Shown here: piece after piece, positions 1 through 64,000 of the stretch | Layout: the number at the start of each line of letters is the position of its first letter | Position numbering within the stretch: position 1 is the first letter of the stretch | Source of the DNA: Calothrix sp. PCC 7716 | GTDB taxonomy: Bacteria > Cyanobacteriota > Cyanobacteriia > Cyanobacteriales > Nostocaceae | Assembly (NCBI RefSeq): GCF_019977735.1 | Contig: NZ_AP025018.1 | Coordinates: 10,916,580 to 10,980,579 of the forward strand | Direction: 5' to 3' | DNA length: 64,000 nt | Notes under the pieces: model-generated | The model's input: only the letters and a program-made list of their open reading frames with translations | Database searches by the model: none | What the model was told of the DNA's origin: nothing | Program-made: the position numbers and the translations under genes

Positions 1-51
1 TAAAATTACTTCAAGAGTTTTCAAGCTGAAATAATATCTCATGTGCAAGCA

Positions 52-198
52 TTAGCTGTTTAGTCTTGATTGTAATTCTTGTAATTGTTCTAATAATGGT
101 GGTAAATCTCTTTGAATCGTCTCCCAAATAATTTCTAAATTCATTTCGCGCGCGTCGTGTATGTCAGAAATTAATCTTACACAACTTAATCCTGGTTC
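52..198 (-). pseudogene. C-terminal remnant of a HepT-like (DUF86) protein
   Basis: Read on the minus strand, this stretch gives about 48 codons ending in TAA. They contain the segment DIHDAREMNLEIIWETIQ followed by RDLPPLLEQLQELQ, which resembles the C-terminal helix of DUF86/HepT proteins, the partner of MNT nucleotidyltransferases in toxin-antitoxin pairs. No start codon or N-terminal domain is present: upstream the frame runs into two palindromic intergenic repeats (about 202-265) and then a stop. I read it as the surviving 3' end of a gene whose 5' part was lost. No MNT partner is visible inside the window. Family assignment is from memory of the motif and is moderately sure. Confidence 0.5.
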
Positions 199-201
199 AA
201 A

Positions 202-265
202 GTAGGGTGGGCAGTGCCCACCGTACAAATGTATACTGCACAGGCTAGAAGCCTATGCTACATGA
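202..265. repeat. Two adjacent palindromic intergenic repeats
   Basis: The first element is GTAGGGTGGGCAGTGCCCAC with its continuation (202-226), an inverted repeat of GTGGGCA/TGCCCAC. The second, 238-263, has the form CACAGGCTAGAAGCCTATG. Related copies lie at 9565-9585 and 57069-57092 (first type) and at 9684-9710 and 14684-14708 (second type). They sit just past the 3' end of the minus-strand ATPase gene, so they may also act as its transcript end. Confidence 0.7.
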
Positions 266-3200
266 CAACTGCTGGTTGTAACTCGTGTTCTTTGGTGGGT
301 GTGTATGTGTAATTGGATTTGTCTTCGCTATTGGGCAGAATTGTGATGTATTTGCCGTCTAAGTTGCGATTACGTGATACCAATTCTTTACGACCCTCGT
401 TAACTAAGAACGGAAGCACTGCACTGGCGCCAATAACCACCATATCTACTACGTTAATTGGTGCGATTTGCAACAAACCTTTGAGTCCAGGTACGGTTGC
501 GGCAGCGATTTGTAGTGCAAAAGAACCACCCAAGGCAATATTTAGATATTTGTTTTGTGGTAGTCTCTTACCGCTAAATATGCTGTGGGTTTGCGAACGG
601 CAACTGAGCGCGTACATTAACTGTGCCATTGTCAAGCTCATAAAGCCAATGGTGCTGGCAGTTGCTCCCATACCATAACGGTTAATAGCATAACCATAGG
701 CGCCTAAAGCACTTGCTGACATTATCGCTGACTCGCCAACAATGCGTCGGAAGTCAGAATTTTTGATAATTGGTTCAGATGGGTCACGGGGTGGCGCCAG
801 TAATACATCTGGTTCAGGAGCTTCCATTGCCAGTCCGAGCGCAGGGAAGATATCTGTTACTAAGTTCAACCATAGTAACTGCATAGCTGTCATTGGTTCA
901 CCTATACCAGCAGCAGTTGCAGCGAGCATCACCATAATTTCACTGGTGTTGGTTGATAGTAAAAAGTGAACCGATTTACGAATGTTGTTGTAAATTGTAC
1001 GTCCATGACTAACGGCTATAATCATGGTTTCGAGGTTGTCGTCTTCGAGGATAATATCCGCCACTTCACGGGCAACATCGGTGCCACTATGTCCCATTGC
1101 AATACCAACATTAGCAGCTTTGAGCGCGGGAGCATCATTAATTCCATCCCCGGTCATTGCTACTATTTTACCTGTGCTTTGCTGTGCTTGGACGATTTGC
1201 AATTTGTTCGCAGGACTAATACGTGCAAAAACATTTACTCGGTCGCACAGTCCTTTAACAACTTCTGGGTCAACTTGTTCGAGGTGGGTTGAGTCGAGAA
1301 TTTCTAGCTGTTTGCCTTGGCTAAGATTTAGTTCTTTACCAATAGCATAAGCTGTTGGACTTTGATCCCCAGTAATCATTACGGTGTTGATACCTGCTGA
1401 GTGGAAATCTCCCATCAATTCCTTCACACCTTTACGGATGGGGTCTGCCATTCCCACAAGTCCCAACCAAATTAATTCACTTTCAGTGTTAATTTCATCC
1501 GAATCTTGAATTAAATAAGCAATTCCAAGAACACGCAGTGCTTTACCTGCCATGTCCTCGTTATCGTTCTCAATTAACTGTCTATCAGCATTGGTTAAAG
1601 GTATTTGCTGACCGTTTTTGAGTTGATGACTACATAGCGCTAATACTTCAGATGGACTACCTTTAACTGCAACAAGTTTTTGATTGTTGTCAGGAGTATT
1701 ATGTAGCGTCACCATGTAGTTACGCGCTTGCGAACGGTGACTAATTTTCTGCAACGGATAATTTTCGCGCAGACTATTTACATTCACTCCAGCATTTATT
1801 GCTAAGTCGATAAGCGCGTTCTCTGTTGAAGAACCTTTTACAGTGTAATTGTGTTCTTTGTTTTCCTTTTTCTCTTTAACCTTTTCCTTTTCTTCAATAA
1901 TGCTTTCGTTGCAAAGTACCAAGACATGCATTAACTTCAGCACTTGCTCGTTGCTATAAGGATTAATAGACTCATCCCCATCGCGCAACTTATCTTCTGC
2001 AACATCAATACATCGTCCATCAGCACACAACTCAACAACCATCATGCGGTTAGCTGTAATAGTACCAGTCTTGTCCATACAGATAGTCTGTACCGAACCC
2101 AGTGTTTCCACTGCATCAAGGCGCCGGATTAATACGTTATGCTTCCGCATGTTAGCAATACCAAGCGCTAATGTAGTAGTTGCTACCGTTGGCAGTCCTT
2201 CTGGTACTGCTGCTACAGCCAACGAAATTGTTGACTTGAGCATTTGCAGCACACTGTTACCGCGCAACACACCAATACCAAATACAACAGCACAAATGGC
2301 GCCGCTAATTACAACAAGCTGACTTCCTGCTTGGTCGAGTTGTTTTTCCATCGGGGTTTCAGGTGTCGAAGCTTCACCAAGCATCGCCTGAATTTTACCC
2401 ATTTCGCTATATTTACCTGTGGCGACAACTACCGCTTTTCCTTGTCCCCCTGTCACCAAAGTACCCATGTAAACCATGTTTACCCTGTCGCCCAAAGCTA
2501 CATTCTCATCTTCGAGCGCTACAGTAGACTTACTAACGGGCATACTTTCACCCGTCAACGCCGACTCATCAATACTCAAACGCTCTGCTTCAATTAAGCG
2601 TGCGTCTGATGGTACATAGCTACCAGGCTTGAGAACTATAATATCGCCGAGGACAATTTCAGTAGCGCTGATTTCAGCACTATTGCCGTCGCGAATAACT
2701 ACTGCCGTTGGCTTAACTACATTTTGAAGCGAACGAATTATTTTTTCAGAATTGCTCTCAGTAGCATATCCAATCCCTGCATTGATTACTACTACTCCCA
2801 TAATGACAGCAGCATCAAGCAAACCACCTGTAGCAACTGACACTCCTGCCGCTACTGCTAAAAGTCCTACTGGCAGTGATTTAAACTGATCAACAAACAT
2901 GCTCAACCCCGAACGCGGTTTTGCTTGCGGCAGGGTATTTAAGCCGTATTTCTTCAGTTTGCGAGCAGCAGAATCACTTGATAGTCCTAATACATTTGAC
3001 GTTTGCAACTCATTAATTACGGTCTCTACAGAACGTAAATGCCAAGGTGCAACGGATTGCGCTTTTGTTCCGACCAGATCGCGTGTTTTTTTTGCTTTTT
3101 TCTTAGCTTGGTGCTTGTTTTTTGTTACCAAATTTACAGAATTTTTGTTTTGCTTTTGGTAATCAAAAACCAGACTTTCAATCAGCGATGCAAGACTTTT

Positions 3201-3428
3201 AGGACTGCGTGCTAGTTTATAAATTACCAGCATATTTCCTGTGACCGGGTTGGCAGAAACACAACATATATCGTTGTTTTCTGCCAATCTCAACTCTAGG
3301 TATTTCTTAAGAGTATCCGAACCCTGAAGACCATTTACTTTATACCTAGCCCTCCCGCTCACCGCCGTATGTACTTCCTTAACGATAGGAATTTGACGGC
3401 GCCGGGAGATGTTACAGCTTTTATTCAT
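258..3428 (-). CDS. P-type cation-transporting ATPase (Ca2+-type, P2) with N-terminal HMA-like domain
   Basis: This 1056-residue membrane pump probably exports a divalent cation such as Ca2+ using ATP. The phosphorylation motif CMDKTGTITANR places the catalytic Asp near residue 452. TGES occurs in the actuator domain, TGDGINDAPALKAANVGIAMG in the hinge, and VAAVPEGLP in TM4, the signature of Ca2+/SERCA-like P2 pumps. Residues about 15-90 resemble the HMA_2 type domain but carry no CxxC metal site; a typical cation-ATPase N domain follows at about 130-195. A Lys/Glu-rich insert (about 520-535) lies in the nucleotide-binding region. The start is the first ATG. The gene stands alone. Substrate is inferred from TM4 and not certain; Na+/H+-type P2 pumps look similar. 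Confidence 0.88.
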   Translation of the reverse strand: MNKSCNISRRRQIPIVKEVHTAVSGRARYKVNGLQGSDTLKKYLELRLAENNDICCVSANPVTGNMLVIYKLARSPKSLASLIESLVFDYQKQNKNSVNLVTKNKHQAKKKAKKTRDLVGTKAQSVAPWHLRSVETVINELQTSNVLGLSSDSAARKLKKYGLNTLPQAKPRSGLSMFVDQFKSLPVGLLAVAAGVSVATGGLLDAAVIMGVVVINAGIGYATESNSEKIIRSLQNVVKPTAVVIRDGNSAEISATEIVLGDIIVLKPGSYVPSDARLIEAERLSIDESALTGESMPVSKSTVALEDENVALGDRVNMVYMGTLVTGGQGKAVVVATGKYSEMGKIQAMLGEASTPETPMEKQLDQAGSQLVVISGAICAVVFGIGVLRGNSVLQMLKSTISLAVAAVPEGLPTVATTTLALGIANMRKHNVLIRRLDAVETLGSVQTICMDKTGTITANRMMVVELCADGRCIDVAEDKLRDGDESINPYSNEQVLKLMHVLVLCNESIIEEKEKVKEKKENKEHNYTVKGSSTENALIDLAINAGVNVNSLRENYPLQKISHRSQARNYMVTLHNTPDNNQKLVAVKGSPSEVLALCSHQLKNGQQIPLTNADRQLIENDNEDMAGKALRVLGIAYLIQDSDEINTESELIWLGLVGMADPIRKGVKELMGDFHSAGINTVMITGDQSPTAYAIGKELNLSQGKQLEILDSTHLEQVDPEVVKGLCDRVNVFARISPANKLQIVQAQQSTGKIVAMTGDGINDAPALKAANVGIAMGHSGTDVAREVADIILEDDNLETMIIAVSHGRTIYNNIRKSVHFLLSTNTSEIMVMLAATAAGIGEPMTAMQLLWLNLVTDIFPALGLAMEAPEPDVLLAPPRDPSEPIIKNSDFRRIVGESAIMSASALGAYGYAINRYGMGATASTIGFMSLTMAQLMYALSCRSQTHSIFSGKRLPQNKYLNIALGGSFALQIAAATVPGLKGLLQIAPINVVDMVVIGASAVLPFLVNEGRKELVSRNRNLDGKYITILPNSEDKSNYTYTPTKEHELQPAVVM

Positions 3429-4346: not shown

Positions 4347-4347
4347 A

Positions 4348-5509: not shown

Positions 5510-5584
5510 GTAGAAAGTGCTGAGTAGAGACGAGATTAATCGTGTCTTTACTCAGCACTCAGCACTCAGCACTCAGAACTCAAA
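5503..5584. repeat. Short tandem heptamer repeat (STRR) with inverted arms
   Basis: Copies of CTGAGT(A/G) run in one direction, then after a palindrome (GACGAGATTAATCGTGTC) in the opposite direction as CAGCACT repeats. The arms can pair to form a long hairpin just upstream of the next gene. Confidence 0.85.
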
Positions 5585-22163: not shown

Positions 22164-22702
22164 GCCGCGTTCCTCATGCTCCTTGCAGAATCAATTACTC
22201 AAGACAAAATTGCAGTTGCTCGCGTGACGAGCTTTGAATATCATCCCTACAACTAGGGTAATGACTAATTTAGCTAAAAAATGTTCAGACATGTTACATA
22301 TTTCATCTAAAAAAATATGCAAACAAATTTCCGAAACTTAACCCACAGCAAGAATGCTTAAAAAGGGTTTTCAAGACATACCGCACATTAACAATAGCTA
22401 CTGCCGATTAAATACTCATACATTGAGCCTTTCTTTGAGAAATAGCATTGAGTTTGGCATTGTTTATTAAGTGAAAAACACTCTTATGTTGCTCACGCAC
22501 ATGCACTCGCGATTGAATTACCTGTTACAGACCTTCAACCTAAATTACACCTTACAAAAAAAACATCTTTACTAATGGGATGAAGATATTTTTTTGTCAA
22601 GACTTTTTAGATTGTAGCCTGTTTCACAAAAATTGCACTTATTTTGTGTAATATCCGTGAAGGAACTTTAATCAACAAAGCCTGTTATATCAAATAGAAA
22701 TT
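22164..22702. other. Leader/intergenic region upstream of sigA
   Basis: 540 bases with no gene I can support on either strand. AT-rich, no repeat family members and no GGCGCC site. It probably contains the sigA promoter(s) on the minus strand and the start of whatever is transcribed rightward toward 22703. Confidence 0.5.
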
Positions 22703-22858
22703 TTGAGCGGCAACCGTACACTTGAACTTTACCCAAATCTTAACTATAACCACCCAGAAATTATTGTTACTTTCTTTGAAGAGGCACGTCAAAATGCAGG
22801 AAAACTTCGCACGGATTTGCCAAAACCTCAATTATTTGGTAAGCAAGCGTTCTCATAA
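22703..22858 (+). CDS. Possible small protein or gene remnant (51 codons, no ATG)
   Basis: The frame from TTG at 22703 reads LSGNRTLELYPNLNYNHPEI followed by IVTFFEEARQNAGKLRTDLP and stop. Its composition is protein-like and unlike the surrounding AT-rich spacer. The frame is open back to about 22663, but no ATG is present and no RBS is obvious. It may be a true small protein with a TTG start or the relic of a longer gene. I recognise no family. Confidence 0.35.
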   Translation: MSGNRTLELYPNLNYNHPEIIVTFFEEARQNAGKLRTDLPKPQLFGKQAFS

Positions 22859-22933
22859 GTGGTTTTGTTACCAAAAACTATTTCTAACAGTTCTGCATTA
22901 CACAACAAAAGCATATTTTTGAATTAAATACGG

Positions 22934-23050
22934 GTGAAAACACATTACTCGGTAACTACTACTTACTCTAACTCGCTACGGGATACAGCAGAACAAGTAA
23001 GGGAAGTAACAACCATTTTCTTGCTGGAAGCCAGAAAACTCGATACTTAG
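22934..23050 (+). CDS. Possible small protein (38 aa) followed by a terminator
   Basis: From GTG at 22934: MKTHYSVTTTYSNSLRDTAE followed by QVREVTTIFLLEARKLDT and stop. The second half would make an amphipathic helix. A plausible terminator hairpin begins 20 bases after the stop, which supports transcription in this direction. A faint copy of the CTACGGGATACAGCAGAAC stretch appears at 23212-23240. No family recognised. Confidence 0.35.
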   Translation: MKTHYSVTTTYSNSLRDTAEQVREVTTIFLLEARKLDT

Positions 23051-23070
23051 ACCCTAGACAAGACATAAAT

Positions 23071-23106
23071 GCCTTTACCAAGCATTTATACTTAAAGGCG
23101 CTTTTT
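23071..23106 (+). terminator. Terminator-like hairpin after the small ORFs
   Basis: GCCTTTA, a 15-base loop, TAAAGGC, then GCTTTTTCC. Not associated with any large gene. Confidence 0.5.
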
Positions 23107-23869
23107 CCTATAGACAAGTGAAGCTTTGCAAGTTTAATGCCGCAATCACCGTTTTTTTAGATAACAAGCCAATATTTTAATCAAGTGGCTTCGCTTGAAA
23201 TTAAGGCAACCAGCAGCAAAACATCTGCGGGATACAGTAAAAATTAGCCATACGTCGCTAATTAATTTAACTCTAGCTTATTTAATTTTAATCGCACGAG
23301 GACGTGCTACTGAAATGTCAACCCTGTGAGACTTGACAAACTGTTCTTATTGTATACAACGTATTTTAATCAATTCAAAACGAGTTTGACACTCAGGACT
23401 AACAATATTAACCCACTTGATACAAAAATGCATAGTAAACCCAGAAAAATACTCACCTCACACGCCTCATACCACGCAAATTCTATCTACGACAGCTATT
23501 CACAGCAGTTAATGCAACACATTTTTTGCGACAGTAGCTCGTTGTATTTACTAGAACTAATATACTGATAAGCGTGCTTTTTCCTGTTTACTTAATACTT
23601 CCAACAGAATCACTGTCTATATACTGAGATTTCCGAATTGTCATCGAAAGCTGACAATATTGTTTACTATTCTGAGTACATCTACTTTTTATTACAAGAT
23701 ATAAACTTTTATGAATATAGGCAAATAGATTAAATTAGCATATCAGATTTTGGCAAATCTACACTATAAGTTAGTGCTATGCATAACTATGGTGAAGACT
23801 TATGCACAAAACTTTACAAAGTTTAGTAAGATAACCTCATAACAAAAATGAGTATTTTTTCTTATTGAC
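23107..23869. other. Intergenic region upstream of ndhD
   Basis: 760 bases. The 80-codon open frame at 23326-23568 lacks an RBS and any recognisable motif, and I leave it out. A TTGACA at 23332 has only a poor -10 at the right distance. A short inverted arrangement (TGCTATGCATAACTATGG and CTTATGCACAAAACT, 23777-23815) sits just before ndhD. No repeat-family members and no GGCGCC site are present in this stretch. Confidence 0.5.
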
Positions 23870-30877: not shown

Positions 30878-30880
30878 AAA

Positions 30881-31012
30881 GTGCTGAGTGTTGAGTGCTG
30901 AGTGCTGAGTGCTGAGTGCTGAGTTCTGAGTTCTGAGTGTTGAGTTCTGAGTGTTGAGTGCTGAGTGCTGAGTGCTGAGTTCTGAGTGTTGAGTGCTGAG
31001 TGCTGAGTGCTA
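30881..31012. repeat. Long heptamer array (STRR), about 18 units
   Basis: Uninterrupted tandem array of the 7-mer GAGTGCT with scattered GAGTTCT and GAGTGTT variants, all in one orientation. It is the longest such array in the window. Confidence 0.95.
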
Positions 31013-31718: not shown

Positions 31719-33767
31719 ATGGTATCAAATTCTACAACGTTCTCTGATATACAAAATCACTGGGCACGTCCATTTATCGAACCATTGCTGCGACGTGGTG
31801 TAGTTGCAGGGCAAAGCGGTGTCTTTCGTCCCGATAACTCAATCACACGTGCAGAGTATGCGGCAATTATAACTAAAGCATTTACAAAGATTCCGAAAAG
31901 GCGCCAATACATACCTTTTGTAGATGTACCTGCAAATTCTTGGGCTTTCTCAGCAATTCAAACAGCTTTTGAAACTGGCTTTCTCAACGGTTTCCCTGAT
32001 AATCGTTTTCGCCCCGATAACCGAATTTCGCGTCTAGAAGTTTTATTATCCCTAGTCGCAGGTTTAGACATAGCGTCAAAAATAAGACCTGACTTATTGA
32101 ATAGCTTGCCGCAAATCTATGAAGACTCGATACAAATTCCTGGCTATGCAAGAAATCAAGTAGCAATAGCAACTAGTGCCGAAATAGTATCAAGCCACCC
32201 AAATACAAGATTACTCAATCCGAATTTAGCGGCAATTCGCGCTGATGTTGCGGCGTTTATCTATCAGGGTTTAGTGTACATTGGCGAAGTACCAAAAATT
32301 GCCTCTAACTTTTTAGTTTCACCTCGACAAACTTCAACCCCACCACGTCCCACACCAACTCCAACTCCATCACCAGCACCAACAGGTACAGTTCGTGTGA
32401 GCCATCGTCGTGAATTTCGCGGCGCCTGGTTAACATGTGTATGGAATATTGATTTTCCGTCGAAACCAGGGTTATCTGCCGACCAGCAAAAAGCCGAACT
32501 AGTACAAATTATTACCCGACTTCAACAATTAAATTTCAACGCGCTCGTATTTCAAGTACGTCCTGAAGGAGATGCAACTTATCAGTCGCAACTAGAACCT
32601 TGGAGTGCTTGGTTCTCTGGTACACAAGGTCAAGCACCCGGATATGACCCATTACAGTTTGCTATTGCTGAATGTCGTAAACGCAATATTGAACTACACG
32701 CATGGTTTAACCCTTACCGCGCGAGAACTTCTATTCGACAAAATAATCTTGCCCGTCCTCATCTCGCCGTTACAAACCCTGATGTAGTATACCAATGGGG
32801 TAATCAATTATGGATGGACCCAGGTGCCAAGGTAGTACAAGACCGTGCGTACAATGTAATTATGGACGTGTTAAAGCGTTACGACGTTGACGGTATTCAT
32901 CTTGACGACTACTTTTATCCTTACCCCATTCAAGGACAAACCTTTCCTGATAATAAAACTTATGCAGCGTATCGCAATGCTGGTGGTAATTTAAGTTTGG
33001 AAGACTGGCGCCGTGAAAATGTTAATCAAATGGTATTACGGTTATCACAAGGAATTAGAGCAGCAAAACCCCACGTAAAATTTGGTATTAGTCCCTTTGG
33101 TATTTACAGACCAGGACAACCAGCAGGAATTCGAGGTTTAGATGCTTTTGCAGTACTTTATGCCGACGCTAAAAAGTGGGTTGAACAAGGCTGGTTAGAT
33201 TATATTGCTCCACAACTATATTGGCGTACCGACCAAACACAACAAAGTTACCCTGTTTTACTCAAGTGGTGGACAGAAATTAATACAAGACAACGCCATG
33301 TTTATGCAGGAAACAATCTTGGACAACTTGATGGCAAAGCATGGAAAGACGAAGAAATTGAAAAACAGGTAAAAATTAGTCGCAACCTATTTAATGATTT
33401 ATCTTTAGGCAACATCTTTTTTAGTATGAGTGGCATTAGCGAAAATCGTCAGGGTATCGCCGATAAATTCCGACAATCTCTATATAATACCCCCGCACTG
33501 GCGCCGACAATGCCTTGGCGTAATTCTAACCCACCATCACCACCAACTCAACTTCAAGTCGCTTCACGGCGCCTATCTTGGCAACCAGGAGACACGCGCG
33601 AAATTCGTTCTTGGACTTTATACAGACGCAGTGGAGATAACTGGACACTACAGCGCGTTCTAAGTCGCGGCACAAACTTCGCCACCGTAGAACCAGGACA
33701 GTATGCAGTATGTGCTGTTGATAGATTAGCCAATGAAAGTTCAGGCGTAGTTATTACCGTAAGTTAA
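31719..33767 (+). CDS. SLH-domain protein with GHL10-type glycosyl hydrolase domain
   Basis: 682 residues. Residues about 5-195 hold three SLH modules (FSDIQNHWARPFIEPLLRRG, then FVDVPANSWAFSAIQTAFET, then a weaker one), which usually tether proteins to the cell wall. A Pro/Thr-rich linker (PPRPTPTPTPSPAPTG, about 208-225) leads to the GHL10/DUF187 domain, beginning REFRGAWLTCVWNIDFPSKP and including FQVRPEGDATY, HAWFNPYRA and DGIHLDDYFYP. The short C-terminal part (about 595-680) resembles a fibronectin-III-like fold. No signal peptide is visible at this start, which is odd for an SLH protein; an upstream start is blocked by stops. Confidence 0.87.
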   Translation: MVSNSTTFSDIQNHWARPFIEPLLRRGVVAGQSGVFRPDNSITRAEYAAIITKAFTKIPKRRQYIPFVDVPANSWAFSAIQTAFETGFLNGFPDNRFRPDNRISRLEVLLSLVAGLDIASKIRPDLLNSLPQIYEDSIQIPGYARNQVAIATSAEIVSSHPNTRLLNPNLAAIRADVAAFIYQGLVYIGEVPKIASNFLVSPRQTSTPPRPTPTPTPSPAPTGTVRVSHRREFRGAWLTCVWNIDFPSKPGLSADQQKAELVQIITRLQQLNFNALVFQVRPEGDATYQSQLEPWSAWFSGTQGQAPGYDPLQFAIAECRKRNIELHAWFNPYRARTSIRQNNLARPHLAVTNPDVVYQWGNQLWMDPGAKVVQDRAYNVIMDVLKRYDVDGIHLDDYFYPYPIQGQTFPDNKTYAAYRNAGGNLSLEDWRRENVNQMVLRLSQGIRAAKPHVKFGISPFGIYRPGQPAGIRGLDAFAVLYADAKKWVEQGWLDYIAPQLYWRTDQTQQSYPVLLKWWTEINTRQRHVYAGNNLGQLDGKAWKDEEIEKQVKISRNLFNDLSLGNIFFSMSGISENRQGIADKFRQSLYNTPALAPTMPWRNSNPPSPPTQLQVASRRLSWQPGDTREIRSWTLYRRSGDNWTLQRVLSRGTNFATVEPGQYAVCAVDRLANESSGVVITVS

Positions 33768-33784: not shown

Positions 33785-33885
33785 AATAAACTACTTCTTG
33801 TGGAATAAACTACTTCTTGTGGAATAAACTACCTCTTGTGGAATAAACTACCTCTTGTGGAACGGGCATCCTTGCCCGTCCCTAT
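33785..33885. repeat. Four 19-bp tandem units leading into a GGGCATCCTTGCCCGT palindrome
   Basis: AATAAACTACTTCTTGTGG is repeated four times (33785-33860; the last two units have one base change, CCTCTT for CTTCTT) and runs straight into AACGGGCATCCTTGCCCGTC. The unit contains the CTTGTGG that normally flanks the palindrome elsewhere, so the array grew from that element's left edge. Confidence 0.9.
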
Positions 33886-33914: not shown

Positions 33915-34910
33915 CTAAACCTGTAAACAAAGCTCTAGTTGTGTCGATTGCATTTGTTTCATATTCGACTCATTATTATCCTTTAAATATTGAAGCAAAC
34001 ACCTTGCAACAAACTCAGCTAACTTTACTGGGACAGCATTACCAATCATTTGTTCCAAATCAGTTTTAGATAAATTTTTTTCATCAAAAATAAAATTTGA
34101 AGGAAATGTTTGTATATAGCTACGTTCTATAGTAGTTAATGGACGTAAATCAGGAGTAACAGGCGCCGCATCACCTGGATGTCCTTTATAACTTTTGGGA
34201 ACAGGACGATTTACACTTCTAATTGTAGGGCTTGGTTCATCAATACTAAATATAGCTCGTCTTTGATAAGTTCTAGGATGCCTGTAGTAATATTCAACTC
34301 CTAGACTGTTTCCTAAATAATGCCTGATTGTAGTTGGTTCTTTGGATAAATTATAGTTTATATATGGAATTAATGCGTTATCGATACCGTTTAATTCTCC
34401 TATACAAAAATATCTTTTTCGACTTTGAGGAACTCCACAGAATGCTGCATTAATTATGTTTTCTGTCAACCCGTAACCACTATTTTTAAATATCTTAATC
34501 ACTTGATTATATTTCTGGCTTTTTTGAAACCTATCTACATTTTCCATCACAAACCATTGTGGTTTTACAAACGCGATCATTTGAGCGAATGTAATACTCA
34601 AATCACCTCTTCCTAAATCTTCATTACGCTTCCCAGCGCTAGAAAAATCTTGGCAGGGTGGACCACCTATAATAACGTCAGGCTTGAAGCTAAGAAAAAA
34701 CTGATAATCTTCTACATTGCCAAGGTCGCAACTGTAAATTTCATGGGAGAAGTTCTTTTTATAAACTTGTATCGCTGGTTCCCATTTATCAAATGCTGCT
34801 ACAACTGTCATACCAGCATTTTGAAAGCCTAAAGATAATCCACCACAGCCAGCGAAAAAGTCAATAATTCTTAAATTTGTATATTGGGCTTGCTTGTTTA
34901 TTAATGCCAT
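33915..34910 (-). CDS. DNA (cytosine-5)-methyltransferase, solitary
   Basis: 331 residues from the ATG at 34910, with GGGA upstream; the further TTG is less likely. C5-MTase motifs in order: I FFAGCGGLSLGFQNAG (SAM binding), IV GGPPCQDFSSAGKR with the catalytic Cys (about residue 77), VI VMENVDRF, VIII region PQSRKRYF, and IX-X ERSYIQTFPSNF, then QMIGNAVPVKLAEFVARCLL. The target-recognition region between VIII and IX is about 80 residues and short. No restriction enzyme gene adjoins it, though a decayed endonuclease-like ORF lies 1.5 kb upstream across the RuBisCO-like gene. Its specificity is not known from sequence. It belongs to the Dcm/HaeIII-like superfamily. Confidence 0.93.
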   Translation of the reverse strand: MALINKQAQYTNLRIIDFFAGCGGLSLGFQNAGMTVVAAFDKWEPAIQVYKKNFSHEIYSCDLGNVEDYQFFLSFKPDVIIGGPPCQDFSSAGKRNEDLGRGDLSITFAQMIAFVKPQWFVMENVDRFQKSQKYNQVIKIFKNSGYGLTENIINAAFCGVPQSRKRYFCIGELNGIDNALIPYINYNLSKEPTTIRHYLGNSLGVEYYYRHPRTYQRRAIFSIDEPSPTIRSVNRPVPKSYKGHPGDAAPVTPDLRPLTTIERSYIQTFPSNFIFDEKNLSKTDLEQMIGNAVPVKLAEFVARCLLQYLKDNNESNMKQMQSTQLELCLQV

Positions 34911-35005
34911 ACAAATTCCCAAAAAGACCTATGGCAAATTGTCAACTATAGTTCCTTTGTTCGTCAACTATGCTTATGTTTATTTTTGTGTAGTACGTTT
35001 GTTAG

Positions 35006-36190
35006 CTACTTATCTATCCACACACCCCATTTTTGAATTGCGCTCTTTAAGGCGCCATCTGGTAAGCTATCTAAACTATCAAAATTCAAAGATTCACTTT
35101 TATTCACACATTCGAGAGCTTCAAAAAATGCTTTGACGCCACTACCTGCGCCATCAGGGTGGTCCATAATGCCTGTACCCGCGTTGAGAATTACATCTTG
35201 CCCATAGTCAGATACAGCTTTACCTACTACACCTGGATGAATACCTGCAGATGGAACTGGCATTACATTTCTTGCTCTTAAAATATCGCGAATTTTGGCT
35301 TCAGTATTGGCATCGAATGGTAAATTACCATAATGGGCTGGATACAAAACAGCATCGGCGCCAGCATAAGCCATTAATGTTCCTAAAGAAACCGAATAAT
35401 CAAAACCATAGTCAGGGGCAGCAGAAAGGGCGCCTGCACCCGCAGGATGGGTAAATATAGGCACATTTACTTCTGGGTCTACAGCTAAAGCTTCTAAAAC
35501 AGAAAAACCATAGGAAAAGACATTTAATAATAAAGCATTGGCGCCATTACTTACTAAATCTCTAGCACGTTGTAATAATTGTGCAGCATTTCCTGTAACA
35601 TTAACAGCGTAAAGTACAGTGCGTCCAGTTTCTTGCTTGACTGTATCAAGTACTTCGCGGCAAGCTTTTAAGCGTTCGAGAGTGGGAGCAGAAGGAAGAT
35701 TGCCTAAAATTTCATCATCTTTGATAATATCTAAACCTTCCATAGCAACTTCCTTTAAAATTGCAGCATGGTCTGCGGCAGAAAGTCCTAAAGCTGGTTT
35801 GAAAATTGCCATTATTAAAGGACGTGTACGCACGTTCAATAACTCACGTATACCTGATATACCATATTTAGGACGCAACCCGTAATTTTCGGGTAGTCTT
35901 AGTGCAACAACTTTCGCGGCGCCTGCCATTGAGTACTTACCGAATATCATTGTAAGTAAGCTACTCACATCGTTTTCTACATTCGATAAAGGAAAGCGTA
36001 CCGTCGCAATACTGTAATTATCAGGTTGTTTGACAACAGATACAACTTCACCAAGATGCGATGTTAAACTTGCTTCACGATGGGCAAAGCGCGCGTCCCA
36101 AGTTCCAACAGTTTGCCCTATCGCAATAACTTTAGCTTGCTTCTCGGCATTTACATCCGGTGGAAAACGATAATCTACTTCGATAGTCAT
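35006..36190 (-). CDS. mtnW: RuBisCO-like protein (form IV), probably DK-MTP-1-P enolase type
   Basis: 394 residues from the ATG at 36190. It aligns along its length with B. subtilis MtnW/YkrW as I recall it: AKVIAIGQTVGTW, FGKYSMAGAAKVVALRLP and RPLIMAIFKPALGLSA. Of the RuBisCO catalytic set, the Lys of KPxLGL is kept while the second Lys is Ala (KPALGL). The Mg-site motif is intact as IIKDDEILG (carbamylated Lys, Asp, Glu). Loop-6 Lys and the GGG phosphate motif differ, so it cannot be a carboxylase. MtnW enolises 2,3-diketo-5-methylthiopentyl-1-phosphate in methionine salvage. No other mtn gene is near, so the symbol is a family inference. Confidence 0.82.
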   Translation of the reverse strand: MTIEVDYRFPPDVNAEKQAKVIAIGQTVGTWDARFAHREASLTSHLGEVVSVVKQPDNYSIATVRFPLSNVENDVSSLLTMIFGKYSMAGAAKVVALRLPENYGLRPKYGISGIRELLNVRTRPLIMAIFKPALGLSAADHAAILKEVAMEGLDIIKDDEILGNLPSAPTLERLKACREVLDTVKQETGRTVLYAVNVTGNAAQLLQRARDLVSNGANALLLNVFSYGFSVLEALAVDPEVNVPIFTHPAGAGALSAAPDYGFDYSVSLGTLMAYAGADAVLYPAHYGNLPFDANTEAKIRDILRARNVMPVPSAGIHPGVVGKAVSDYGQDVILNAGTGIMDHPDGAGSGVKAFFEALECVNKSESLNFDSLDSLPDGALKSAIQKWGVWIDK

Positions 36191-36262
36191 TTTAAAAAGT
36201 TTCTGCAAAATATCAAAATCCAGTATCCCAGAATTTCTACAAGTTTTGATATCCCATCTGGT

Positions 36263-42526: not shown

Positions 42527-42865
42527 ATGCTTGACTTAAACACGTTATCTGAATTTTCTCGCGCGAATTGTATAAGTATTTGCGCGTTTCTAGTCCCTGC
42601 AAATCTGATTGCAACATCGCTGACAATGATTCTTGTTTTCATACATCGTCAACGTTTATCACAGCAAGTAGGACAAGCATGTGTAATTGCCAGCTTTTTT
42701 GCTGTAACAATGATACTACATGTGTACACCTGGTTTGAAGTAGGTATAGTCAGACCGCAAACTTTTATACTGCTATTGCTAGCTATTAGTTGTTTACTAA
42801 CAAACATCGTCGCAGTTTGGTTACATCATCGCTTGGTGAAAGTAGTGTTGAGTGTTGAGTGCTGA
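42527..42865 (+). CDS. Three-helix membrane protein, unknown
   Basis: 112 residues. Membrane segments: about 17-38 (ISICAFLVPANLIATSLTMI), 50-70 (VGQACVIASFFAVTMILHVY) and 79-100 (TFILLLLAISCLLTNIVAVW). The last codons (VLSVEC and stop) are supplied by a heptamer array, so the original C-terminus may have been different. It has no recognisable family and no clear RBS. Confidence 0.55.
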   Translation: MLDLNTLSEFSRANCISICAFLVPANLIATSLTMILVFIHRQRLSQQVGQACVIASFFAVTMILHVYTWFEVGIVRPQTFILLLLAISCLLTNIVAVWLHHRLVKVVLSVEC

Positions 42866-42930
42866 GTGCTGAGTGTTGAGTGCTGAGTGTTGAGTGTTGA
42901 GTGCTGAGTAGAGACGTGATTTATCACGTC
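42844..42930. repeat. Heptamer array (about 9 units) ending in a GACGTGAT palindrome
   Basis: GAGTGTT/GAGTGCT units run from the end of the preceding ORF to 42911, then GACGTGATTTATCACGTC (42913-42930). Same composite as at 5503-5584. Confidence 0.85.
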
Positions 42931-51358: not shown

Positions 51359-51870
51359 AAATTACTTCCTAAGAGCCGAAATATAATAACTTCTAAGTAA
51401 ATTTAATTACTTTTTTAGTATATATATTTACTAGTATAGCCGCAAAAAGTGAATAAATATATAAATAAATACTAAAATAAATCAAAAATCATCAGATAGC
51501 AGTTCATGCTTATACTGGTGACGTATGGGTATAAACAATACAGTTTTATGCTATTTCAAGGCTTAAATTTAAAAAATTTTTAACATTTGTATCACAAAGA
51601 AGAAAATCAAGAGCATACAAGCTACAAAATTTATTGTATTTTTAAATATAATAATAAAAATATTAAAAACATTGACTTTCGTTATTATAAGTATACATAA
51701 ATTAATTGAGTAATAAATGTATCTACGTCACTTAAAGTAAAAATTATTGCGCTAGTTACTGACTTGGTTAATTTTTATTTTTTAATTTTTAATTGATTTC
51801 CACCCACTATTATTGTGGACAGATTGTGGGATAATAAGCCGATTGCATACCCTAACTAGACAAAACCATC
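51359..51870. other. AT-rich 512-base divergent promoter region
   Basis: Lies between the kinase (-) and the next gene (+). Very AT-rich (long A/T stretches at 51580-51800), without repeat-family members, GGCGCC sites or terminator hairpins. No small ORF that I can support. Confidence 0.5.
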
Positions 51871-55856: not shown

Positions 55857-55980
55857 GTCCTGAGTAGAAAGTGCTGAGTGCTGAGTTTTGTTTTACTCAG
55901 CAACGCCATTCGCCTCAACGGGGGGAACCCCCGCACGGCGATGGCTCCTCAGCACTCAGCACTCAGCACTCCTCACTCAT
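55857..55980. repeat. Heptamer arrays flanking a GCCATTCGCC hairpin, between ado and aar
   Basis: GAGTGCT units, then GCCATTCGCCTCAACGGGGG pairing with AACCCCCGCACGGCGATGGC (55907-55947), then reversed CAGCACT units. It occupies nearly all of the ado-aar spacer. Confidence 0.85.
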
Positions 55981-59288: not shown

Positions 59289-59434
59289 GTAGTGCTGAGT
59301 AGAAAGTGCTGAGTGCTGAGTAGCAGTATTAAAAGTTAGGAGTTAGGAGTTAGGAGTTAGGAGCTACAACTCAGCACTCAGCACTCAGCACTCAGCACTC
59401 AGCACTCAGCACTCAGCCCTCAGCACTCAGAACT
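59289..59434. repeat. Heptamer arrays plus AGTTAGGAG tandem repeat
   Basis: Forward GAGTGCT units, then four copies of AGTTAGGAG (59333-59361), then about nine reversed CAGCACT units. It fills the spacer between the SDR gene and folE. Confidence 0.9.
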
Positions 59435-60165: not shown

Positions 60166-60169
60166 TAGT

Positions 60170-60290
60170 TGAAAGTGCTGAGTGCTGAGTTCTGAGTAAG
60201 AAGAGTTAGGAGAAAGAAGTTAGAAGTTAACGTAATTATTTCCCACTCAGCACTCAGCACTCAACACTCAGCACTCAGCACTCAGCACTG
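60170..60290. repeat. Heptamer arrays with GTTAGGAG variant core
   Basis: GAGTGCT units, then AGTTAGGAGAAAGAAGTTAG and six reversed CAGCACT units. The array overlaps the 3' end of the trpF coding sequence (60268-60290). Confidence 0.9.
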
Positions 60291-60909
60291 TTAACTGTTC
60301 AAACAATTTTGTGACTTTATCTAAATCTTTATCTGCTGGCGCCTTTTCGACACCGCTCGATAAGTCAATTCCGTTTGGTTTGACTTTATTTAGTGCTGAG
60401 GCAATATTGTCTGGTGTTAATCCTCCTGCTAAAAACCAAGGACGACCTGGGTTAAATTCCTCAAGGATGTTCCAATCTAGAATTTGACCAGTTCCACCTA
60501 ACTGTTGAGGATGATAAGCATCTAATAGCAGGGTATCAACATAATCAGTAAAAGTCTCGGTATTATCTAAATCTTCGACATTACGTATTCTTAACGCTTT
60601 AATTATTTCAATTCCTGGCAAAATTTCACGTACTTGTTTGCAAAATTCTGGAGATTCATTACCGTGTAATTGCACTCCTGTCAATGCAGAATTATTTGCT
60701 ATAAATGCTATTTCTGTTGGTTGTGCATTGGCAAAAACTCCAATCTTATCTATCGAAGACGGTATTAAAGCTACAACCGATTTAATTTGTTCAACGTTAA
60801 CGTAGCGTGGGGAAGATTCGACGCAAATAAATCCTAAAGCAGTGGCGCCCGCAGCCGCAATAGCTTGACCTTGTAGTGGGTCACGAATTCCACAAATTTT
60901 AATTCGCAT
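60268..60909 (-). CDS. trpF: Phosphoribosylanthranilate isomerase
   Basis: 213 residues; the Amadori rearrangement step of tryptophan synthesis. (beta/alpha)8 barrel: [11 protein letters not shown] with the catalytic Cys (residue 6), [17 protein letters not shown] with catalytic Asp (about 130), [10 protein letters not shown] and [12 protein letters not shown] (phosphate binding). The last residues TVLSAEC and the stop are encoded by the heptamer array; the barrel is already complete, so function should not suffer. Convergent with folE. Confidence 0.96.
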
Positions 60910-61048
60910 ATAGATTTTAAGAATTTAAGAAACGTAGTTAACTTTACTGTAATTCTAAATAAATAAAGAGTATTGGCTTTATTTACTATAAACTTTTATA
61001 ATCTTTCTGATTATGATAAGTTTTCACTCTGAGGAGAAAACCGCGCTT

Positions 61049-61300
61049 ATGCCTTCATTTTTACTAGCAGTTGCAGCTAACGTTCCCGCAACACCCGCTT
61101 GGAGTCCAACAATTGGATTGATTATCAGCATATGCTCGTTTGTTGCGCTGCTGCTCACCTTAAAGATTGAAAGACCAATGGTTGGGCCAAAAATGCCACT
61201 ACTACCTATGAGCATTCCTGCATTTGTAGCTGCAATGTGCTTTGGTCACGTTGTCGGTATTGGTGTCGTTTTAGGACTGACTAACATCGGCACATTGTAA
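61049..61300 (+). CDS. psaK: Photosystem I subunit PsaK (copy 1)
   Basis: 83 residues from the ATG at 61049; GAGGAG lies 12 bases upstream, and the ORF extends 12 codons further without support. PsaK is a two-helix subunit at the rim of the PSI core. Helix 1 is TIGLIISICSFVALLLTL (about 20-37), helix 2 MSIPAFVAAMCFGHVVGIGV (about 53-72). The loop ERPMVGPKMPLLP and the end GLTNIGTL are PsaK hallmarks. A second psaK follows after 133 bases. Confidence 0.94.
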   Translation: MPSFLLAVAANVPATPAWSPTIGLIISICSFVALLLTLKIERPMVGPKMPLLPMSIPAFVAAMCFGHVVGIGVVLGLTNIGTL

Positions 61301-61335
61301 AGTGCAGCACATTTTACGGCATTTGTAATTCTAGC

Positions 61336-61363
61336 TAAAGGGGGAGGTAGTTTCCTCCCCTTA
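61336..61363 (+). terminator. Hairpin between the two psaK genes
   Basis: AAGGGGGAGG-TAGTTT-CCTCCCCTT without a strong U-run. It may stop part of the transcript or stabilise the 3' end of the first message. Confidence 0.5.
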
Positions 61364-61433
61364 GATGGAAGATTCAAGTCTTTATCCGAACGAGCATTAA
61401 AAATGAGCTTATGTTCGTGTAGGAGAAAAAACT

Positions 61434-61745
61434 GTGTTTTCCACATTTATATCTACTTTGACATTTAATTTTGTATCGCTTTTGGCAGCTGTTCAACCAA
61501 CTGTTCCTAATAGTGCTGTTGAATTTAACTGGACTGGCACTTACATTATTGTTGGCGCGAGCTTATTAGCTCTTTTAATTATTCCCAGAACAATTGAAGA
61601 ACCCCATGTAGGTAATAAAATGCCATTACCTTTCCCTTCGTTGTTTAATAATCCTAGTGTTGGTACATTTCTTGCAGCAATGGCTACTGGTCATATAGTT
61701 GGCATAGGCGCCGTTTTAGGTTTAACCAACCTTGGTGTTATTTAA
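61434..61745 (+). CDS. psaK: Photosystem I subunit PsaK (copy 2)
   Basis: 103 residues from a GTG at 61434 with AGGAG eight bases upstream. Helix 1 is [15 protein letters not shown], helix 2 [20 protein letters not shown], then the end GLTNLGVI shared with copy 1. The loop ([18 protein letters not shown]) is longer and the N-terminus is extended by ~20 residues. The two copies share the (V/H)VGxKMPL loop but are diverged, which suggests distinct forms (compare PsaK1 and PsaK2 of Synechocystis, the latter induced by high light). Confidence 0.92.
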
Positions 61746-61776
61746 TTAATTTTGAATCAAATATTTTATATTGTTG

Positions 61777-61804
61777 GTAGAGACTAAACATGTTTAGTCT
61801 CTAC
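61777..61804 (+). terminator. GTAGAGACTAAACATG palindrome acting as terminator
   Basis: Perfect 14-bp inverted repeat GTAGAGACTAAACA/TGTTTAGTCTCTAC followed by ATTTTTATAC, 31 bases after the second psaK. It combines a repeat-family member with a terminator shape. Confidence 0.75.
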
Positions 61805-62107
61805 ATTTTTATACATTATTTTTACATGTCATACCTGTTGATGTAGCCCAGAGTGCATATTGCCCTGGTTGATTTTATCAAAATATAATAATTTTTACTT
61901 GCAACAATAATGATAATTAAACGCCAATATGAGCGTTAAGGTTTGCGAGTCAACTGCTTAATATCCAAAGAGCTACAATTGTTTATGCTAGAGATATTAA
62001 ATCTGATGAAGCATGTTACTACACGTTCTTACAAGCTATATTAGAATAAGTAAAAGACATACTACTTAATTAATACAATTAGTAATATTTATTAAACGGG
62101 GAAAATC
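61805..62107. other. Spacer between psaK and the M50 protease gene
   Basis: About 300 AT-rich bases without supported ORF or repeat-family member; contains a plausible GGGG ribosome site just before the next ATG. Confidence 0.45.
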
Positions 62108-63304
62108 ATGCAAACAAATTGGAAAATAGGGTCTTTGTTCGGAATACCTTTATTTTTAGATCCGTTGTGGTTTGTAGTTTTTGGGTTGGCAACGCTAAAT
62201 TTTGGTTTTGCTTACCAGCAATGGGGCGCCAGTTTGGCTTGGGGCGCCGCAGTGGTAATGTCATTACTGTTGTTTGGCTCAGTTGTGCTACACGAGCTAG
62301 GTCATAGCTTGGCTGCAAAATCACAAGGCATTAAAGTTAACTCGATAACCTTATTTTTATTTGGTGGAATTGCGGCAATTGAAGAAGAATCAAAAACTCC
62401 AGGTAAAGCTTTTCAAGTTGCCATAGCAGGACCACTAGTAAGCATTGGCTTATATATAACACTGCAATTGATATCAAATGTATTTTCTGATACTTCACTT
62501 ACACATGCCATACTTGGAGACTTAGCACGTATTAATTTAGTGTTAGCACTATTTAATTTAATTCCAGGTTTACCGTTAGATGGTGGACAAGTATTAAAAG
62601 CAGCATTATGGAAAGTGACGGGCAATAGATTTCAAGCAGTGCGAGGCGCCGCTTTATCTGGAAAGATTTTAGGGTATGCTGCGATTGCGATTGGTTTAGC
62701 AGTTGATTATTTTACAAGTGACTTAGGAACAGGATTATGGATTGCATTATTAGGGTGGTTTGGAATTCGTAACGCGACAAGCTACGACCGTGTTACAGTT
62801 TTGCAAGAAACACTACTAAAAACTAAAGCTAGCGAAGCAATGACGCGCGACTTTCGCGTTATTGATGCAAACCAAACATTGCGTGCGTTTGCCGACTTAT
62901 ATTTATTAGATTCCAATTCACAAATTTACTTCGCTGAGTCAGATGGACGCTACCGAGGTATGGTAAACGTTGACAACTTACGTAAAATAGAACGTAGCGA
63001 GTGGGAAACCAAAACCTTAGAAGCAATAGTTAACACCCTTTCAGAACTTCCCACGGTCGAAGAAACAGCCACACTAGTAGAAGTAATCAACAAACTCGAA
63101 GACGAAAAACTTCTGCGAGTAACAGTACTTTCACCAGCAGGCGCCGTTGCTGGTTTAATAGACAGAGGAGATATTATCCAAGCGTTAGCAAAAAAACTAA
63201 AATTAAAAATTAGCGATGCTGACATCAAACAAGTAAAACAAAATGGAACCTACCCACCAGGACTACAGCTAGGAATAATTGCCAAATCTACAACAAATGA
63301 ATAA
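62108..63304 (+). CDS. Site-2-type (M50) membrane metalloprotease with CBS domains
   Basis: 398 residues. The zinc site is VVLHELGHSLAAKS (HExxH, about residues 62-71), and the second ligand lies in NLIPGLPLDGGQVLKAAL (Asp, about 160). Four to six membrane helices in residues 15-235. Residues about 245-375 form a CBS pair (SEAMTRDFRVIDANQTLRAF, and LLRVTVLSPAGAVAGLIDRG). This is the class III S2P architecture, in which CBS domains binding adenine nucleotides control intramembrane cleavage. Likely substrates are anti-sigma factors or similar single-span proteins. Confidence 0.94.
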   Translation: MQTNWKIGSLFGIPLFLDPLWFVVFGLATLNFGFAYQQWGASLAWGAAVVMSLLLFGSVVLHELGHSLAAKSQGIKVNSITLFLFGGIAAIEEESKTPGKAFQVAIAGPLVSIGLYITLQLISNVFSDTSLTHAILGDLARINLVLALFNLIPGLPLDGGQVLKAALWKVTGNRFQAVRGAALSGKILGYAAIAIGLAVDYFTSDLGTGLWIALLGWFGIRNATSYDRVTVLQETLLKTKASEAMTRDFRVIDANQTLRAFADLYLLDSNSQIYFAESDGRYRGMVNVDNLRKIERSEWETKTLEAIVNTLSELPTVEETATLVEVINKLEDEKLLRVTVLSPAGAVAGLIDRGDIIQALAKKLKLKISDADIKQVKQNGTYPPGLQLGIIAKSTTNE

Positions 63305-63311
63305 ACTTTGC

Positions 63312-63412
63312 AACGAACACAACGGATGTAACGGATAATTTATTTTATTGAACAAGTTTTTGTTTGTGCAAAAAGCTAAATCTTGTGGAATGGGCATCCT
63401 TGCCCGTTCAAA
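63312..63412. repeat. CGGATGTAACGGATAAT and GGGCATCCTTGCCCGT elements
   Basis: CAACGGATGTAACGGATAAT (63321-63340) recalls 52907-52933. TCTTGTGGAATGGGCATCCT followed by TGCCCGTTC (63383-63412) is the common palindrome. Confidence 0.75.
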
Positions 63413-63462
63413 CATAAAATACTAATACAGAATATTTACTTGAAGAAAGTGCAATAAGATTT

Positions 63463-63494
63463 AAAGCCCCCCTTATTAAGGGGGGTTGGGGGGA
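63463..63494. terminator. CCCCCCTTA-TTAAGGGGGG hairpin
   Basis: Nine-bp stem between the M50 gene (+) and the ligase (-), overlapping the last codons of the latter (its NPPNPP tail). Confidence 0.6.
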
Positions 63495-64000
63495 TTAAAA
63501 GAAGGATTTAGAGAGATTAAAATTTGATGCATCTCCGAATCTGATAAAGGCTTAACGTCAAATTGTGTATTAAAACAATTACTTGCAGCATCAACTAAAG
63601 CATTAATAATGGTTTCAACATCAAAATTTAAAGACAACTCCCCAAAGCGTGATTCTTCACCAAAAACCTGAGAAAATAATTCAATATCAGGCTGTAATTG
63701 AATGGCGCCATGTTGCAAAATAGCATTCCCCTTTCGTAACTGTGCGCTACCAATTAATTTATATCCATTATTCGTAACTAAATCTGCACTTGTAGCAGTA
63801 CCAAAACAATTTGGATTATGAATATAACCACGTCCTGCCGTACCATAATGTAAATCTACACCAAGCTGTTTCCAGCCAGCAATTAAAAACTCACATATTT
63901 TTTGATAAGCTTGCATCCGAGTCCCATTTAACCCAGATGTTATCACAGCATAAGTTAAATCCCCTTGATGTAAAACAGCCCTTCCACCTGTAGGACGTTT
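63476..64000 (-). CDS. Lipoate-protein ligase A / BPL-LPL family protein (partial, cut by window end)
   Basis: 175 C-terminal residues are inside the window; the start lies beyond 64000. Right at the edge is KRPTGGRAVLHQGDLTYAVI, the R(R)xxGGGxVxH(x)G(D)L motif of lipoate/octanoate transferases. Later YGTAGRGYIHNPNCFGTATS and YKLIGSAQLRKGNAILQHGA carry the GxAQ.r and 'QHG' features (Lys that binds the acyl-adenylate). It probably attaches lipoate or octanoate to a 2-oxoacid dehydrogenase or GcvH. The tail after LISLNPS is supplied by the terminator repeat. Confidence 0.85.
   Translation of the reverse strand, partial: KRPTGGRAVLHQGDLTYAVITSGLNGTRMQAYQKICEFLIAGWKQLGVDLHYGTAGRGYIHNPNCFGTATSADLVTNNGYKLIGSAQLRKGNAILQHGAIQLQPDIELFSQVFGEESRFGELSLNFDVETIINALVDAASNCFNTQFDVKPLSDSEMHQILISLNPSFNPPNPP

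Follow-up and report, generated by a model that had tools for sequence, protein, structure and literature searches.

The window, as we call the whole stretch of 64,000 nucleotides of the Calothrix sp. PCC 7716 genome analysed here, contains the palindrome GGCGCC 111 times (once per ~577 bases) and a gene for a 5-methylcytosine (m5C) DNA methyltransferase of the HindV/GRCGYC type. Most cyanobacteria carry the highly iterated palindrome (HIP) HIP1, GCGATCGC, which is tied to methyltransferases according to passages of Elhai (2015; PMC4390886) and which selection maintains according to Xu, Lawrence and Durand (2018, as cited in PMC6604393). GGCGCC is the HIP of the genus holding strains PCC 7102 and PCC 7103, and we favour, with moderate confidence, the joint claim that it is an alternate HIP which is predicted to be methylated, is written by the gene in the window and is actively maintained. 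The phenomenon is already in print for the same genus, and this kind of finding is not new: for Calothrix PCC 7103, and for 19 kb of Calothrix D253, passages of Elhai (2015) describe an alternate HIP with the word GGCGCC, and they note two predicted GRCGYC methyltransferases in PCC 7103. A literature search that was thin on subscription journals yielded no second paper on GGCGCC in the cyanobacterial HIP setting. Added here beyond PCC 7103 are the status of the word as a clade trait, the constraint on its six bases, the contrast at its inner C and the likely writer inside the window.

GGCGCC in the window and the genome

A sequence-only reading of the window had estimated about 110 GGCGCC sites, one per ~580 bases, against about 3 expected by chance at ~38% GC, and had found no HIP1. 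Both counts proved accurate and the excess stands, with the expectation nearer 6. Dinucleotide-preserving shuffles of the window (39.3% GC) gave a mean of 6.1 sites and a maximum of 13, none of the 100 reaching 111, and a second-order Markov model gave 5.0. No other hexamer in the window, palindromic or not, is as over-represented as GGCGCC (observed/expected ratio, O/E, 18.4 under a first-order Markov model), and HIP1 occurs there 0 times (expectation 0.33). The whole genome gives the same picture, GGCGCC being far above expectation and HIP1 at the control level: the 12.37 Mb contain 20,380 GGCGCC (1,648 per Mb; O/E ~20 in 464 kb) against 7 copies of the word read backwards, and 66 HIP1 against 64 of its backward control, which is no over-representation. 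Neither of the two outcomes that the reading had named as refuting it, a Markov expectation near the observed count or HIP1 being abundant elsewhere in the chromosome, occurred.

The sites lie mainly in coding DNA and in all three frames, as the same reading had claimed. With genes called by a simple longest open reading frame (ORF) rule, 8 of the 111 window sites fall outside genes. In 720 kb of the chromosome, the first base of the word is at codon position 1, 2 or 3 in 597, 207 and 288 cases, respectively; the commonest frame is Gly-Ala, and 564 of the 1,013 Gly-Ala dipeptides are spelled GGCGCC. Permutation of synonymous codons within each of the 442 genes of these 720 kb, which retains each protein and the codon counts of each gene, left 72.8 ± 8.2 sites, compared with the real 1,026. 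The O/E was 25.7 in non-coding and 20.4 in coding DNA, and there are fewer sites per Mb of non-coding DNA (1,043) because its GC content is lower (34.0% vs 39.5%). The long spacers in which scarcity had been noticed are indeed siteless, but a word-specific avoidance of spacers does not follow from these ratios:

22164..23869, no strand: long spacer with 0 GGCGCC (~1.8 expected at the non-coding density; zero is unremarkable)
51359..51870, no strand: second spacer with 0 GGCGCC (~0.5 expected at the non-coding density; unremarkable)

Regular spacing of the word was considered and rejected, since the gaps are distributed almost at random (coefficient of variation, CV, of the gaps 0.97; 207 gaps over 1 kb vs 222.6 expected). 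Gaps below 50 bases are the sole clear deficit (43 vs 100.7 expected), and the sites are slightly under-dispersed (index 0.89-0.94). The near-words of GGCGCC other than GGTGCC and GTCGCC are depleted in the 464 kb, with O/E 0.08 for GACGTC and 0.16 for GACGCC/GGCGTC; GGTGCC occurs at chance frequency (101 vs 101.6 expected, O/E 0.99). The word is also present on a plasmid: a 45-kb stretch of NIES-4105 plasmid1 has 48 sites (1,067 per Mb).

Many other palindromes are nearly absent from the 464 kb, among them TTCGAA (0; 139 expected), GTGCAC (0; 85), GCATGC (0; 104), CCATGG (0; 60) and TGCGCA (1; 112), and the O/E is 0.11 for GGCC and 0.14 for GATC. Such avoidance would be expected if the genome carries, or once carried, a large number of restriction systems.

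Clade distribution and conservation of the word

In the seven genomes examined, GGCGCC is a clade trait of the genus as delimited by GTDB (this genome, Dulcicalothrix desertica PCC 7102, Calothrix PCC 7103, NIES-4105, HK-06, C42_A2020_038 and FI2-JRJ7). Each has between 7,475 and 20,380 sites, i.e. 1,150-1,711 per Mb or one per 580-870 bases (1,701 per Mb in PCC 7102). Our family sample of 145 genomes, drawn from a larger group, includes 138 others, none of which has a comparable density; the largest count, 1,053, came from a genome of 9.5 Mb in which the backward control was higher (1,270). HIP1 occurs 31-163 times per genus genome, at least 535 times in 137 of the 138 others and 30 times in the remaining one (G082). 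It is clearly raised over its control in three genus genomes (PCC 7103, 163 vs 58; C42_A2020_038, 147 vs 37; NIES-4105, 125 vs 75), and HK-06 has 88 vs 66. The word has the properties of a HIP in the sense of Elhai (2015), being a GC-rich palindrome in extreme genome-wide excess at about 1,000-2,000 per Mb, and HIP1 is low (4-23 per Mb) in all seven genomes, as expected for an alternate HIP. The earlier suggestion of HIP behaviour with a different word is supported both genome-wide and across the genus. In four low-HIP1 family genomes (G022, G082, G083 and G014), samples of 50-100 kb each contained no comparable replacement palindrome; a weak HIP1 signal persists in the samples of G083 and G014. 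G022 instead contains ~60 copies per 100 kb of a dispersed repeat, rich in GGAGACTGA / CGGAGAAT, that is not palindromic.

The 720 kb of chromosome were aligned to five relatives; these alignments also supplied the expected changes, broken down by base, type of change, codon position and synonymy. Each line below gives the aligned length, identity and background divergence, followed by the intact GGCGCC sites, the window sites kept, the non-coding sites kept (small numbers throughout) and the observed and expected substitutions in the flanks (1-15 bases from the word):

PCC 7102 (218 kb, 93.9%, 6.1%): 350 of 386 intact, 208.0 expected (91%); window 101 of 108; non-coding 24 of 30, 15.5 expected; flanks 717 vs 680.5
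PCC 7103 (463 kb, 93.6%, 6.4%): 673 of 859 intact, 443.5 expected (78%); window 80 of 97; non-coding 37 of 59, 25.7 expected; flanks 1,659 vs 1,577.0
FI2-JRJ7 (141 kb, 93.6%, 6.5%): 208 of 248 intact, 135.7 expected (84%); window 78 of 98; non-coding 11 of 15, 6.3 expected; flanks 497 vs 448.6
NIES-4105 (183 kb, 87.4%, 12.7%): 280 of 348 intact, 88.1 expected (80%); window 67 of 82; non-coding 13 of 19, 4.6 expected; flanks 1,304 vs 1,264.1
C42_A2020_038 (34 kb, 83.1%, 16.9%): 37 of 62 intact, 8.8 expected (60%); window 21 of 35; non-coding 1 of 2, 0.3 expected; flanks 341 vs 305.0

The comparison with sister genomes that the sequence-only reading had proposed shows orthologous GGCGCC sites to be kept far beyond expectation. 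Substitution in the flanks is near normal (O/E 0.86-1.23 at the single distances 1-15 in NIES-4105), and therefore the constraint is confined to the six bases of GGCGCC. Conservation does not fall steadily with divergence, and the first four relatives argue against simple decay. It also shows little relation to the isolation of a site: in NIES-4105 it was 87% for the quartile of most isolated sites and 77-79% for each of the three denser ones, and there was no trend in PCC 7102 (88-94%) or PCC 7103 (76-81%).

When all hexamers were treated in the same way, GGCGCC was the best-kept word against NIES-4105 (1,450 words), PCC 7102 (1,586), PCC 7103 (1,929) and FI2-JRJ7 (1,172), and the second against C42_A2020_038 (600), behind CGCGCG. 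The latter may be a second HIP-like word. Its O/E is 4.9 in PCC 7716 and 9.8 in the NIES-4105 stretch, its recent gains number 20 vs 8.6 expected, and it is kept at orthologous places in 81 of 120 cases in NIES-4105 (31.3 expected) and in 12 of 21 in C42_A2020_038 (3.0 expected).

Changes inside the word were polarised in four lineages (PCC 7716, PCC 7102, PCC 7103 and FI2-JRJ7; 1,295 taxon-sites). The lenient mode required at least two agreeing other genomes, and PCC 7103 losses in this mode may include gains in the ancestor of PCC 7716 and PCC 7102; in the strict mode NIES-4105 had to agree. A four-way alignment of 70,153 columns, without 2:2 or multi-state columns or columns missing any of the four genomes, was used as well. 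Losses other than C->T at the inner C were reduced to 0.28 of expectation (71 vs 256.6, lenient; 39 vs 120.7, strict), whereas inner C->T losses reached 107 vs 87.7 (O/E 1.22, lenient) and 58 vs 43.5 (strict). By class, the lenient non-deamination losses were 35 vs 179.1 for synonymous, 25 vs 51.9 for replacement, 9 vs 13.7 for non-coding and 2 vs 11.9 for codon-unclear changes; G->A at positions 1 and 2 of the word gave 21 vs 90.2 and 8 vs 51.7. With the most excessive class removed for every word, GGCGCC ranked seventh lowest of 1,610, the six words below it having 19-27 expected changes, and of the 61 words for which 100 or more changes were expected it had the lowest non-deamination loss O/E. 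The inner C alone leaks, in the direction expected of m5C deamination, as the contrast within the word indicates. GGTGCC is not over-abundant and stays at chance, and so it is not simply tolerated. We infer that the inner C mutates at roughly fourfold the normal rate, offset by the same force that keeps the other bases in place.

The lineages contributed 14 vs 78.5 (PCC 7716), 6 vs 43.8 (PCC 7102), 47 vs 109.6 (PCC 7103) and 4 vs 24.6 (FI2-JRJ7) other losses, and 21 vs 28.3, 10 vs 14.1, 58 vs 37.2 and 18 vs 8.1 inner C->T losses, respectively. Compared with PCC 7716 and PCC 7102, PCC 7103 maintains the word less strongly and has a larger share of inner C->T; part of this difference may be an effect of polarisation. 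Gains numbered 4 vs 1.36 expected (lenient), 0 vs 0.53 (strict) and 7 vs 0.8 (four-way alignment); all 4 lenient gains and 4 of the 7 four-way gains arose from GGTGCC.

The methyltransferase gene and its surroundings

The likely writer of a mark on GGCGCC, judging by homology, is the single window gene among the 16 matches to PF00145 in the genome, a gene that the sequence-only reading had not pointed out. The gene and its neighbours are:

33915..34922, minus strand: m5C DNA methyltransferase of the HindV/GRCGYC type, 335 aa, frame open (PF00145, E 2.2e-64), without a neighbouring RE_HindVP gene
35006..36208, minus strand: RuBisCO-like protein gene from the ORF list (PF00016, E 7.7e-38), next upstream of the methyltransferase after a gap of 83 bases
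31719..33767, plus strand: protein with SLH and glycosyl-hydrolase-like GHL10 parts, on the other side of the methyltransferase in the ORF neighbourhood

The protein contains the PCQ and ENV motifs. The best enterobacterial plasmid homologues among the matches listed are 54-57% identical to it, and one of them is annotated hindVM beside hindVRP; HindV recognises GRCGYC, and Elhai (2015) works with this specificity class too. Homologues with 82-92% identity were found in all seven genus genomes, and the surrounding DNA also aligns in PCC 7102, PCC 7103, NIES-4105, FI2-JRJ7 and C42_A2020_038. The word is accordingly accompanied in the whole genus by an encoded methyltransferase that is predicted by homology to be able to act on it. 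In an alignment of 54 methyltransferase sequences (L054 and L071 were dropped by the motif filter), the putative target-recognition region, which we placed at residues 190-275, has 59-70 of 85-86 residues identical in 23 family homologues from other genera, and 17 of these 23 sit beside RE_HindVP.

Of a HindV-type restriction-modification (R-M) system, the genus has the m5C methyltransferase and not the cognate nuclease: a search limited to the RE_HindVP family (PF09519) found it in none of the seven genomes. The same family is present in 32 of the 138 other genomes, in 31 of them over the curated cut-off. A strong homologue of the methyltransferase (at least 350 bits) occurs in 35 genomes outside the genus, all of which retain HIP1 (252-1,027 per Mb); in 28 of them RE_HindVP is present and GGCGCC is at 0-14.5 per Mb. 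Among 25 methyltransferase loci, the 6 of the genus hold 16-41 GGCGCC each, whereas 16 of the other 19 loci are free of the word and the remaining three have 1, 2 and 10 sites. Three low-HIP1 genomes without a close homologue have no GGCGCC excess. This distribution, with one clade only to go by, fits the need for a nuclease-free methyltransferase plus loss of HIP1 that Elhai's scheme implies. A single copy of this methyltransferase type was seen in PCC 7102 (14 of 21 candidates scored) and in C42_A2020_038 (14 of 14 scored); a second copy is thus seemingly not needed to maintain the word.

The only other m5C class present in all seven genus genomes, as judged by length and score, was considered as the writer and set aside, as it also occurs in 38 of the 58 other-genus genomes searched. 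Its match on a plasmid is annotated as the neighbour of a Cfr10I/Bse634I nuclease gene, and the specificity of the class is hence probably RCCGGY.

A further methyltransferase of the window type lies on PCC 7716 contig C2, split in two frames beside a DpdA-like gene (PF23859, deoxypurine in DNA), and the ORF beside the paralogue L004 (369 aa) had no Pfam match. Just past the end of the window gene there is a four-copy array of a 19-base unit (33785-33862). Related heptamer tandem arrays (AGTGCTG / AGTGTTG / ACTCAGC / CACTCAG) were seen at 30880-31011, 42844-42909, 59369-59434, 60244-60289, 5550-5582 and 55948-55979.

Origin and maintenance of the word

According to the explanation that we propose, an ancestor of the genus would have taken over the methyltransferase of a GRCGYC R-M system after losing the nuclease and HIP1. 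The enzyme would methylate the inner C on both strands (GG-mC-GCC), and the methylated sites would be favoured by a word-specific force, either selection on the mark or a conversion or repair bias on the word. Deamination of the methylated C would keep generating GGTGCC/GGCACC, most of which would be restored or purged. The data favour a sharp maintaining force that acts in and outside genes, is little affected by neighbouring sites and allows the spacing to be near random. This leaves two kinds of explanation: either the methylated site is selected for, or repair or conversion is biased in a way that acts on the word.

Several observations weigh against a maintained, methylated word. Part of the conservation excess may be common to other GC-rich words, since the kept/expected ratios with NIES-4105 were 2.98 for GGCGCC, 2.78 for CGGCGC, 2.59 for CGCGCG and 2.58 for GCGCGC. 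With all nine changes pooled, the loss rate of GGCGCC ranked only 27th of 1,610 words (strict mode, 42nd of 494; four-way alignment, 120th of 727). The C->T ratio of 1.22 is no higher than in other GGC words (1.21) or other GCGC words (1.36); as C->T is raised in these xGCGCx words too, the argument for methylation is confined to the contrast within GGCGCC. Suppression of change is less certain in non-coding DNA, where the polarised non-deamination changes were 9 vs 13.7 and those against PCC 7103 were 28 vs 37.3. C42_A2020_038, the genome of lowest density, does not speak against simple decay with 60% of its sites kept. Gains are far below losses (4 vs 178, lenient; 7 vs 61, four-way alignment), which we read as fast reversal of deaminated sites, although an ongoing slow decay would look alike. 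GACGTC and GACGCC/GGCGTC are depleted (O/E 0.08 and 0.16), although a GRCGYC enzyme should mark both. Finally, 7 of the 35 other-genus genomes with the methyltransferase lack RE_HindVP and still have no GGCGCC excess (0.5-42.6 per Mb), with HIP1 kept.

The rival that survives best, which we nevertheless hold to be rather unlikely, is the mismatch-repair ratchet requiring inner-C methylation that is proposed in passages of Elhai (2015). A MutH-like factor would read G-mC, mutations creating GmC beside a methylated C would be kept by repair, and GGCGCC would be a by-product saturating at about one site per kb. According to the same passages, the methylated position was known for no enzyme of GRCGYC specificity. 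Under the ratchet, the inner C should be methylated, and GRCGYC and GGTGCC should drift to GGCGCC but not back. The gains derived from GGTGCC (4 of 42 vs 0.40 expected, lenient), the depletion of near-words other than GGTGCC and GTCGCC, the density of the predicted order and the slight under-dispersion agree with this. The spacing, however, is near random, distance-limited saturation predicts fewer long gaps than were found, and the conservation of a site depends little on its isolation in NIES-4105, PCC 7102 and PCC 7103. Two supplements in these passages, that a second methyltransferase copy is perhaps critical and that alternate HIPs are sporadic and do not persist in clades, fit poorly with the present data, as PCC 7102 (1,701 per Mb) and C42_A2020_038 show one copy and the word is common to seven genomes of a single genus.

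It is improbable that the word spread by DNA uptake or by a recombination hot-spot, with fragments bearing it being taken up or recombined more often in the manner of uptake signal sequences (USS), DNA uptake sequences (DUS) or Chi. Specificity for the word in coding and non-coding DNA, in the chromosome and in the NIES-4105 plasmid1 stretch would suit such a drive, which usually leaves abundant one-off words; here these are at or below chance (O/E 0.16-0.99). Still less credit can be given to very-short-patch repair by a Vsr-like enzyme that restores T:G in GGTGCC to C:G and over-acts, thereby enriching the methylated word. Vsr of E. coli does over-act at Dcm sites, and most gains came from GGTGCC (4 of 7, four-way; 4 of 4, lenient), but Vsr (PF03852) was found in none of the seven genus genomes, compared with 5 of 14 control genomes, GGTGCC is not depleted, and such repair cannot account for the suppression of changes seen at positions 1 and 2. 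An origin in codon or amino-acid bias, in base composition or in mutation bias, with no force specific to the word, can practically be dismissed in spite of the genic position of most sites and the prevalence of the Gly-Ala frame, since synonymous permutation removed nearly all sites (72.8 vs 1,026), the non-coding O/E is equally high, and losses are suppressed in the word and not in its flanks.

For the preferred reading of a methylated and maintained word, a wider claim can be made tentatively, as we think it somewhat doubtful: that the genus exchanged one genome-wide word for another as a heritable unit, in which a methyltransferase that had lost its nuclease was domesticated and its target took the role of HIP1. 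If this is true, what matters for HIP function is a methylated G-mC palindrome, whichever word provides it, and the word was kept through the diversification of the genus in spite of the m5C deamination that it suffers. What HIP1 does in cyanobacteria is a long-standing question, for which the genus offers a natural swap experiment: the role of GGCGCC here should equal that of HIP1 elsewhere, one methyltransferase gene is shared, and, by their names, at least three strains of the genus are cultured (PCC 7102, PCC 7103 and NIES-4105). The six-base constraint and the inner-C contrast make the choice between selection, repair bias and drift measurable.

The closest known case is the alternate HIP of Calothrix PCC 7103, a strain of the same genus with ~93.6% identity to this genome in aligned DNA, which has the same word, a density of the same order, the lack of HIP1 and a GRCGYC-type methyltransferase. 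The present analysis differs from that report in six further genomes, two of which show one copy of this methyltransferase type; site-by-site conservation, the six-base limit and the inner-C contrast are absent from the passages of Elhai (2015; PMC4390886) compared. With HIP1 of most cyanobacteria, GGCGCC shares the GC-rich palindrome, a similar density and the link to a methyltransferase, whereas the word and the methyltransferase are different ones and GGCGCC lacks the GATC core, GATC itself being avoided here (O/E 0.14). The HindV-type GRCGYC R-M systems have a closely related methyltransferase with a conserved putative target-recognition region; unlike them, the genus is without RE_HindVP, and its genomes are enriched in one form of the target rather than avoiding it.

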